Assembly (NCBI GenBank): GCA_028819575.1
Contig: JAPPLB010000110.1
Location: 1 to 37,818, forward strand
DNA from: Bryobacterales bacterium
GTDB lineage: Bacteria > Acidobacteriota > Terriglobia > Bryobacterales > UBA6623
Reading direction: 5' to 3'
DNA length: 37,818 nt
Shown here in pieces: positions 20,539 to 23,273 of this stretch (the stretch's first letter is position 1; every line of letters starts with the position of its first letter). Both the position numbers and the translations under genes were made by a program. Under the pieces are notes generated by a model. It did not search any database and was not told where the DNA came from. It was given only the letters and a program-made list of their open reading frames with translations.

Positions 20539-21498
20539 ATGAGACCATTGCGAATCGGAACCGCCCAGTTCGAAGCCCGCGACGGCGACAAGGACTACAA
20601 CCTCAGCCGCATCGCCGCCCTCGGCCGCCAAGCCGCCGAAGACAAGGCGGATCTCGTTTGTTTTCATGAGTGCTCGATCCCCGGCTATACGTTCCTCGAG
20701 AATCTCTCGCGCTCCGACACCGAGGCTCTGGCGGAGCCGGTCCCGGACGGGCTGTCCGTCGATCGATTGATCGAGTTGTCCCGTGATCTGGGAATCGCGC
20801 TCGGCGCCGGGCTCGTCGAGCAAGAGGGCGGGCAACTCTACAACACCTACGTCGTGGTCTCGCCGGAAGGTTTCGTCGCGAAGCACCGCAAGATCCATGC
20901 CTTCATCAGTGAGCATGTCTCGAGCGGCGATTCCTACACGGTCTTCGAACTGCTCGGCGCGAAATTCGGGGTGTTGATCTGCTACGACGTGAACCTCCCC
21001 GAGAATGTCCGTCTGACGGCGATGATGGGCGCGGAGATTGTCCTGATGCCGCACGTTACGGGATGTCTGCCGAGCCCGATGCCCGGCCGCGGGAAAGTCG
21101 CGCCGGAAGTCTGGCGCAACCGTGACACCGACCCCGTGACCTGCCGCCAGGAGTTCGATGGCCCCAAGGGGCGCCGCTGGCTGATGAGATGGCTTCCGGC
21201 GCGGGCCTATGAAAACGGGGTCTACGCCGTCTATTCGAATCCGATCGGAGTCGAGGGAGACACGATCAAGCCCGGCGGTTCGATGATCCTCGACCCCTTC
21301 GGGGAAGTCCTCGCCGAGTGCCGGAAACTAGGTGATGAAGTCGTCATCGCGACTTGCGACCCGGCCAAGCTCGCGGTCGCGCCGGGGCGTGCGTATATCC
21401 GAGCGCGGCGGCCCGCGCTTTATGGCGCGATGACCGCGCCCAATCCACACCTGGGGCGCTCCGGCCGCCCCGAAATCTGGTGGAAGAAACACCGCTAG
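20539..21498 (+). CDS. nitrilase-superfamily carbon-nitrogen hydrolase
   Basis: The 319-aa cytoplasmic hydrolase carries the catalytic triad Glu44 (CFHECSIPGY), Lys118 (KHRKIH) and Cys148 (LICYDVNLPE). The superfamily cleaves C-N bonds in amides and nitriles; the substrate (amidase or carbamoylase type) cannot be read from sequence. An insertion after the nucleophile region (GCLPSPMPGRGKVAPEVWRN) is seen in some aliphatic-amide-type members. The stop codon is part of the hairpin at 21497-21532. Confidence 0.9.
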   Translation: MRPLRIGTAQFEARDGDKDYNLSRIAALGRQAAEDKADLVCFHECSIPGYTFLENLSRSDTEALAEPVPDGLSVDRLIELSRDLGIALGAGLVEQEGGQLYNTYVVVSPEGFVAKHRKIHAFISEHVSSGDSYTVFELLGAKFGVLICYDVNLPENVRLTAMMGAEIVLMPHVTGCLPSPMPGRGKVAPEVWRNRDTDPVTCRQEFDGPKGRRWLMRWLPARAYENGVYAVYSNPIGVEGDTIKPGGSMILDPFGEVLAECRKLGDEVVIATCDPAKLAVAPGRAYIRARRPALYGAMTAPNPHLGRSGRPEIWWKKHR

Positions 21499-21532
21499 GA
21501 GTCTGTCCCCCTTTTCTGTGGGACAGACTCCT
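21497..21532 (+). terminator. perfect 13-bp hairpin overlapping the hydrolase stop
   Basis: AGGAGTCTGTCCC (21497-21509) and GGGACAGACTCCT (21520-21532) form a perfect 13-bp stem with a 10-nt loop. The stem begins inside the stop codon of the nitrilase-type gene. No T-run follows. It may be a terminator or a dispersed palindromic repeat. Confidence 0.6.
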
Positions 21533-21558
21533 GGACCTTCCGAACCATCACCTATAAT
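21531..21558 (+). promoter_or_regulatory. promoter of the HipA-like/DUF3037 operon
   Basis: A consensus -10 box TATAAT at 21553-21558 has a weak -35 candidate CTGGAC at 21531-21536, 16 nt upstream. It lies 26 nt before the ATG of the HipA-like gene, so the pair probably has its own promoter. Confidence 0.5.
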
Positions 21559-21584: not shown

Positions 21585-22466
21585 ATGTCCGTGATTGCCT
21601 GCCAGCATATTCGCCGGATGCGGGGCGGAGCGAATGCCCACTTGATGCTGGCGGATGACCGTCACTACTACGTCGTCAAGTTCCGCAACAACCCCCAACA
21701 TGCGCGCATCCTCGTGAACGAGCTGGTTTCCTACGTCCTGCTGGACTACTTGCAGCTTCCGGCGCCCAGGTGGGATATCGTCGAGGTGCCCGAGGAGCTG
21801 ATCGAGGGCTCTCCGGAGATGACGATGGAGGCGGGCTGGAAGAACCGGCGCTGTGAAGCGGGGCTGCACTTCGGATCTCGCTGGCCGGTCGACCTTCACA
21901 GGCGGGCGGTTTATGACTATTTGCCTTGGTCAATGATGGAGCTTGTCGTCAACTTGCGTACGTTTTGCGGGATGGTCGCTTTCGACAAGTGGGTGAGCAA
22001 TGCGAACGGACGTCAAGCGATATTCTTTCGCGATCGGGCCGACCGCTGGATGCTGTCGGATGACGACTCCTCAAGGGTTGCATCCCGGTCGCTGGCCTAT
22101 GCGGCGAACATGATCGATCACGGGTTTGCGTTCAACGCGCAGACCTGGGAGTTTCCCGATTCGGCCGAGCGGGGGCTTTACAGCCGCCGGGAAGTCTATC
22201 GGCATGTCACGGGGTTCGATGACTTCCAGCCATGGCTGGAAGTCATCGAAGACTGCCCCGCAAAGGTGCTCGATGATGCTGCGAAGCGCATCCCGCCGCG
22301 ATGGTTCGACAACGACTTCGATGCACTCGAGGGGATGCTCGAGCAGCTCTACGCCCGGCGGAAGCGTGTCGCCGATCTCGTGAAGGACAGCAAGAACGCC
22401 GGACGCGACCCGTTTCCCGACTGGTCTCTACGAGTTGGGAGCGCCGTCGCGAGTCGAGGAGGGTGA
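21585..22466 (+). CDS. HipA-like kinase family protein
   Basis: The 293-aa product resembles the HipA-like (HipA_2) kinase family found next to DUF3037 proteins. N-terminal ATP-lobe features are HLMLADDRHYYVVKFRNNPQ, with candidate ATP-binding Lys32, and ILVNELVSYVLLDYLQLPAP. The candidate catalytic segment is MVAFDKWVSNANGRQAIFF (Asp134, Asn139, Asn141); HipA itself has an Asp where Asn141 seems to fall. A later MIDHGFAFN (Asp178) may bind metal. It is about two thirds the length of E. coli HipA, lacks a HipB-like partner, and is followed after 3 nt by the DUF3037 gene. Target and activity are unknown. Confidence 0.8.
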   Translation: MSVIACQHIRRMRGGANAHLMLADDRHYYVVKFRNNPQHARILVNELVSYVLLDYLQLPAPRWDIVEVPEELIEGSPEMTMEAGWKNRRCEAGLHFGSRWPVDLHRRAVYDYLPWSMMELVVNLRTFCGMVAFDKWVSNANGRQAIFFRDRADRWMLSDDDSSRVASRSLAYAANMIDHGFAFNAQTWEFPDSAERGLYSRREVYRHVTGFDDFQPWLEVIEDCPAKVLDDAAKRIPPRWFDNDFDALEGMLEQLYARRKRVADLVKDSKNAGRDPFPDWSLRVGSAVASRGG

Positions 22467-22469
22467 GAG

Positions 22470-23273
22470 ATGCAGACGAAGAGTGAGGAGTCATCACGGT
22501 ATGACTTCCAATTGATTCGCTATGTGCCGAATGTTGCAGCAGCGGAGTTCTTCAACATCGGCGTATTGCTGTATGGAGAGCAATGGGAACTGCTGGACGC
22601 ACGCTTCGCATCCGATTTCGGCCGCATGAACTGCCACCCACTCGTCGAGATGCCCTATCTCGAGGCGCTGCGCGAGGAGTTCGAGGAACATCGGCTGGCG
22701 GGGGATGGCTTCTCTTCCTACATCAACGAACTGTGCAAAAACCTTTCGGCATCACTCGATGTGACGTCTCCGAAGACGTTCTGGGGAGGGAACGCGCCGG
22801 CGGAGATGGATCGGTTGTTCGATACCTATGTGAAAACGCCCAAGCCGCTGAACGGCGCTGAGCACGACGAGAGCCCGCGGGCAGGGACCCGTGCGGCGCT
22901 GCGATTACGCATGGATGACAGCTTCCGGCGTCACTACCTCCTCGATGCTGAGCGGGGTTTGATGACGAATGACTCGGTGCAGTACGCTGGGCCGCGGATG
23001 CGGTTCTCCTTCGACTATTCGTATCGTCCGAACGGAGCGGCCAGGTACGTTCACGGCATCGCGGTTCGGAACGAAATCAACGACGCCACAAGACTCTCTT
23101 TTGTGTTCGAACGGTTGCAGCGTCAAAACGAAGGGTCGGCGCTGGCTGTCGTGTTGGGAGAAGGGGTGCAGGACGACACGGCCGAGCTGTTGGCGGCAAG
23201 CGGAGCGGTTAACTGGCCCGTGGCTCAGGTCGACAAGCTGGCGCTGGCGATTCGCGAGGAACTGGGACTGTAA
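22470..23273 (+). CDS. DUF3037 protein, partner of the HipA-like kinase
   Basis: The 267-aa product has the DUF3037 N-terminal core: RYDFQLIRYVPNVAAAEFFN, then IGVLLYGEQWELLDARF and ALREEFEEHRL. Its C-terminal part is a mixed alpha/beta region of unknown function. No DNA-binding helix-turn-helix or membrane segment is obvious. It lies 3 nt after the HipA-like gene, so the two form a two-gene unit. The pairing of these two families recurs in bacteria, but I know of no established function. Confidence 0.82.
   Translation: MQTKSEESSRYDFQLIRYVPNVAAAEFFNIGVLLYGEQWELLDARFASDFGRMNCHPLVEMPYLEALREEFEEHRLAGDGFSSYINELCKNLSASLDVTSPKTFWGGNAPAEMDRLFDTYVKTPKPLNGAEHDESPRAGTRAALRLRMDDSFRRHYLLDAERGLMTNDSVQYAGPRMRFSFDYSYRPNGAARYVHGIAVRNEINDATRLSFVFERLQRQNEGSALAVVLGEGVQDDTAELLAASGAVNWPVAQVDKLALAIREELGL

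Follow-up and report, generated by a model that had tools for sequence, protein, structure and literature searches.

A HipA-like kinase encoded together with a DUF3037 protein is already known under the names "PDC-M66," "DS-6," and "HipAD," a toxin-antitoxin-like pair directed against phages. In Retron-Sda1, deletion of the HipA gene abolished defense, deletion of the DUF3037 gene was toxic, and the retron parts were dispensable (PMC12548924). The pair was validated as DS-6 and renamed HipAD, and a DS-6A mutant in the predicted catalytic residue lost defense (PMC13092281). A preliminary description of the locus analyzed here regarded the pairing as being without a characterized function, which these experiments contradict, and guessed that DUF3037 may be the cognate partner, in agreement with the neutralizing role of DUF3037 published for HipAD.

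A gene pair of this kind is located in the window, which is the whole stretch of 37,818 nucleotides of a Bryobacterales bacterium that was analyzed. The genes and domains are the following:

21585 to 22466, + strand: HipA_2-type kinase-fold protein of 293 aa (PF20613, AlphaFold2, fold comparison, dN/dS)
22470 to 23273, + strand: DUF3037 protein of 267 aa (PF11236; PADLOC PDC-M66B)
22506 to 22832, + strand: DUF3037 domain, residues 13 to 121 (Pfam boundaries; six-frame match)
22866 to 23270, + strand: C-terminal PD-(D/E)XK-like domain, residues 133 to 267, probably degenerate (structural matches)

The stop codon of the kinase open reading frame (ORF) and the ATG of the DUF3037 ORF, both on the + strand, are 3 nt apart, which confirms the coordinates and the operon-like arrangement described before. 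Both genes are present in a single copy in the 5.37-Mb genome, and they are flanked by genes resembling those for a carbon-nitrogen hydrolase and an aldolase, as named from sequence. The kinase matched PF20613 HipA_2 (4e-11, 43.1 bits, gathering cutoff of 27), and its partner matched PF11236 DUF3037 (5e-13, 49.7 bits, gathering cutoff of 22.6). Matches to the PADLOC candidate defense pair were obtained with PDC-M66A for the kinase (4e-8) and PDC-M66B for the DUF3037 protein (1.1e-8). A PDB sequence search with the kinase yielded only a chance match to a designed helix bundle, and an NCBIfam search gave no useful match. A HipB-type helix-turn-helix (HTH) antitoxin was not found adjoining the kinase, as noticed before, the partner gene being that of DUF3037; the "short form" that had been taken as a peculiarity of the kinase is the normal length for HipA_2. 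The window pair shares with HipAD/DS-6/PDC-M66 the two Pfam families, the gene order, and the tight spacing, and DS-6B is likewise a two-domain DUF3037 partner.

The AlphaFold2 model of the kinase is confident (pLDDT of 89.6) and matches PI4KII (Z of 14.4), CtkA (14.2), HipA (about 11.5), and also Fam20, so that the kinase fold supposed before is present in the predicted structure. CtkA of Helicobacter pylori and PI4KII are the closest solved folds, but they share only 12 to 15% identity with the window kinase, come without DUF3037, and do not allow a transfer of function. HipBA of Escherichia coli and Shewanella has the kinase fold and the ATP-binding residues in common with the window kinase, whereas the window pair possesses neither a HipB/HTH partner nor the N-terminal subdomain, has its partner gene downstream, and has an altered catalytic loop. 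The residues concerned are encoded as follows:

21678 to 21680, + strand: codon of Lys32, the expected ATP-binding lysine, invariant in 120 of 120 homologues
21984 to 22016, + strand: catalytic loop region D134-K-W-V-S-N139-A-N141-G-R143-Q144, with D134, N139, R143, and Q144 invariant
22005 to 22007, + strand: codon of Asn141, N in 56 and D in 64 of 120 homologues
22116 to 22118, + strand: codon of Asp178, the DFG equivalent (IDHG), invariant in 120 of 120 homologues

In the alignment, standard Acidobacteriota HipAD kinases carry W-F-D-x-x-x-x-N-V-D-R-T-x-x-N followed by IDHG, and the window family carries F-D-K-W-x-x-N-x-[N/D]-G-R-Q, also followed by IDHG. Asn141 is aligned with the catalytic Asp in the NVDRT motif of the standard HipA_2/DUF3037 kinases, which bears out the earlier assignment of an Asn to this position, and Gln144, in a shortened loop, probably takes the place of the canonical +5 Asn. 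Compared to HipAD with NVDRTxxN in its standard members, the window kinase thus has Asn141 and a shortened NGRQ loop and lacks the DRTxxN motif. Nothing else than Asp or Asn was found at position 141 among the 120 family homologues, and at least seven changes at this position are required on the kinase tree of 71 rows. Lys32, Asp134, Asn139, Arg143, Gln144, Asp178, and Gly180 are invariant in the Asp141 and in the Asn141 sets, and Glu46 is replaced, by Asp, in just two of the homologues. As neither set varies in the ATP/Mg ligands, the window kinase probably still binds ATP, and full catalysis is doubtful. The dN/dS ratio of the kinase gene is 0.13 in comparison to a sister locus (L039), which indicates purifying selection. 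A decaying pseudokinase would not show this ratio together with a strict D/N site and invariant ligands. The previous suggestion of a pseudokinase is therefore correct with respect to the Asn at the catalytic site but needs to be refined to a two-state Asp/Asn site with all ATP/Mg ligands retained.

An association of Asp141 with an S24-type partner and of Asn141 with an adjacent long DUF3037 protein was considered. The counts (28/24/5) look strong, yet they represent two independent pairs only, giving no statistical support.

Two features are positioned upstream of the kinase gene:

21553 to 21558, + strand: TATAAT, probable −10 element (CTATAAT 5' of the kinase gene in L039 and L040)
21497 to 21532, no strand: 36-nt inverted repeat AGGAGTCTGTCCC...GGGACAGACTCCT, a private insertion (minimum free energy [MFE] z of −5.96)

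The TATAAT on which a promoter of its own had been proposed is real, and CTATAAT is kept in these two relatives, but the promoter scan gave no acceptable −35 candidate for it. The inverted repeat has perfect arms, is placed between the stop codon and the promoter, and folds far better than shuffled sequences. The sister locus, with a kinase 96% identical, does not contain the hairpin, and its promoter region comes straight after the TAG. Because of this absence and of the single occurrence of the repeat in the window genome, the hairpin is a private insertion, so that a conserved terminator was rejected, and the separating hairpin described before exists but is not a conserved gene boundary.

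Of 200 genomes of the order, 182 (from 72 of the 75 genera) contained the kinase family, as did 242 of 299 genomes of the class Terriglobia, mostly as a single copy, and the best 80 loci from a scan of 84,980 species were all from Acidobacteriota. A 100% branch, with about 10 changes per column in all, separates the window family from standard HipAD in the kinase tree. The host families f1, f2, and Bryobacteraceae each form a group in this tree, the root of which is unreliable. A frequent locus across families consists of EF-G, an SLT-LysM lytic transglycosylase, a short ORF on the opposite strand, the kinase, DUF3037, sucB, lipB, and lpd. DUF3037 adjoins the kinase in f1, f2, Acidobacteriaceae, and most of the other families sampled; an enrichment in defense islands, raised before, does not fit this distribution and locus. 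A short protein of about 75 aa (ALELMKFIATTTGY...) without a Pfam match is kept beside the kinase locus in L219:7723, L231:9163, and L319:15503-15718. The distribution indicates that the kinase family is a vertically inherited core gene in Terriglobia and not part of a mobile island. As a core, single-copy, vertically inherited family in a separate clade, it differs from the sporadic HipAD, to which the window pair is only distantly related, without being a textbook member.

In most families sampled, the DUF3037 protein is thus encoded next to its kinase. Its residues 133 to 267 match PD-(D/E)XK nucleases (Can2, Z of 11.0; VC1899, 9.9; BsoBI, 9.5), and Asp182 is invariant in two alignments (A1 and A3). 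A conserved E-x-K was not seen in the C-terminal half in these alignments; catalysis by this half is therefore unlikely. In HipAD, the second domain of the B protein is DUF1829; the window protein had no Pfam match to DUF1829, its C-terminal half being PD-(D/E)XK-like. With a dN/dS ratio of 0.6, purifying selection on the DUF3037 gene is weaker than that on the kinase gene.

In Bryobacteraceae, no DUF3037 gene adjoins the kinase gene, and most of these genomes contain instead an unlinked fusion of about 270 aa of DUF3037 with an S24 peptidase. The Pfam score of the DUF3037 half is slightly below to slightly above the cutoff, the S24 dyad has an invariant Ser and Lys, and most of the fusions keep, as in LexA, an Ala-Gly bond located about 36 residues N-terminal of this Ser. 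This core protein, N-terminal DUF3037 and C-terminal S24, usually has a VWA-domain gene as its neighbor and the kinase gene elsewhere (L204 to L218). A separate LexA-like DUF3037-S24 fusion is located directly 3' of the kinase in L095:8925-9713, L097:8885-9655, and the IMG/VR contig L252:8928-9704, followed in all three by a second complete DUF3037 gene. The recurrence of S24 fusions suggests that DUF3037 may be a partner inactivated under certain conditions.

We favor, with about even confidence, that the window pair encodes the local version of a kinase-DUF3037 regulatory complex that is ancient in Terriglobia and has been inherited vertically, as a sister family of HipAD and not a mobile defense system. 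The kinase-fold protein would bind ATP-Mg via Lys32, Asp178, and probably Gln144, as the invariant ligands suggest, and the cotranslated DUF3037 protein would bind and hold it, by analogy to HipAD. The nuclease-like C-terminal domain of DUF3037 may, according to its fold, dock the complex on nucleic acid. Phosphate transfer would be weak or absent with Asn141, and the complex may act mainly as an ATP-dependent regulatory switch, with DUF3037, in view of the S24 fusions, being the part that would be removed when the complex must switch. Several points argue against a regulatory complex. Standard HipAD with the same Pfam pair is a toxin-antitoxin defense system, and the window pair matches PADLOC M66A/B; core genes can be toxins; and the pair has moved away from the ancestral locus in the genus of the window and was lost in a sister genus, g2. 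This genus of the same family contains neither the kinase nor the long DUF3037 protein (G002, G005, G007, G009, G011, G015, G017, G025, G027, and G033).

The same Pfam, PADLOC, and gene order data, together with the fit of the Retron-Sda1 deletions (PMC12548924) and of the DS-6A catalytic mutant (PMC13092281) to toxin-antitoxin defense, speak for a plain HipAD (DS-6/PDC-M66) anti-phage system, in which an active kinase toxin would be neutralized by DUF3037 and freed upon infection. This assignment is possible but rather doubtful: the catalytic Asp is an Asn and the canonical +5 Asn is missing, the window clade is set off from HipAD by a very long branch, its presence is near universal in a single copy at a conserved locus whereas defense systems are sporadic, and in Bryobacteraceae the kinase persists with no DUF3037 linked to it.

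In Acidobacteriaceae, the pair is located between terL and portal genes (PHROG matches of 1e-33 and 3e-42), and the order terL-kinase-DUF3037-portal was found in 22 of 22 IMG/VR contigs tested and in eight of nine complete or near-complete genomes. The shared cluster further holds genes for a sigma-70-region-4-like protein, an HTH protein, an MCP-like protein, a head-tail adaptor, and tail-like proteins, several of these roles being assigned by position only. Eight of eight genomes had terL, portal, and the MCP-like gene together with one or both flanks of the ancestral locus, and 66 of 120 Acidobacteriaceae genomes had terL, most of them in a single copy. The cluster loci (L287 to L292, L294, L295, and L307 to L322) have their own sigma-like and HTH genes. 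In a few genomes (G272, G703, and G714), terL appears to be split into pieces, which suggests local decay. Integrase or replication genes were not noticed among those shared genes that were annotated, and tblastn of an Acidobacteriaceae kinase and DUF3037 protein against the INPHARED phage collection gave no matches. The lpd set used to compare distances of cluster and flanking genes, in few genomes, included a paralogue. Gratiaviridae gut phages likewise have a HipA-family kinase amid morphogenesis genes, located between portal and MCP beside an ATPase and a glycosyltransferase; the part of the source available names no DUF3037 (PMC8008677), and the Acidobacteriaceae pair differs in lying between terL and portal and in having a fixed place on the chromosome. 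We regard the Acidobacteriaceae cluster as a candidate gene-transfer-agent-like element, although it may instead represent related prophages of one lineage; a literature search yielded no relevant paper on gene transfer agents in Acidobacteria or Terriglobia. A wider proposal, which we consider unlikely, is that a phage-derived locus was domesticated across the class and that the pair, repurposed from the HipAD toxin-antitoxin design, serves as its control module; the pair would still govern the packaging cluster in Acidobacteriaceae and occur elsewhere in Terriglobia alone or with an SOS-cleavable DUF3037-S24 protein.

The invariant ATP/Mg ligands, the restriction of position 141 to the near-isosteric D/N, and the strong purifying selection on a core gene would also agree with an active physiological signaling kinase, in which Asn141 would be sufficient or a different residue, for example the invariant Asp134, would serve as the base, with DUF3037 targeting the kinase to its substrate. 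We regard this as quite unlikely; HipAD kinases have an equivalent of Asp134 beside the canonical catalytic Asp, so that Asp134 is more likely structural and its candidacy as the catalytic base is weakened. Highly improbable is a domesticated-phage remnant, a former terL-portal packaging cluster that stayed intact in Acidobacteriaceae and lost its structural genes in the lineage of the window: the gene order in the contigs and genomes above, at the same locus as solitary pairs, speaks for it, but Bryobacterales have no close terL relative (best identity, 34%), the window genome has no match to this terL family, and the reverse order of events, a gain of phage genes around an older chromosomal pair, fits equally well with the tree root being unreliable.

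As far as checked, a kinase family that is core to the class, a site restricted to Asp or Asn, the fusions of DUF3037 with S24, and the placement of the pair between terL and portal are new. With terL, the pair, and portal sharing one chromosomal locus in different genera of Acidobacteriaceae, an element similar to a gene transfer agent is possible; we found none described for the phylum. The alternation between Asp and Asn with fixed ATP ligands offers a clear way of testing pseudokinase function. For the biology of these bacteria, the distribution shows that a toxin-antitoxin-like kinase pair has turned into a core gene set in a major class of soil bacteria.
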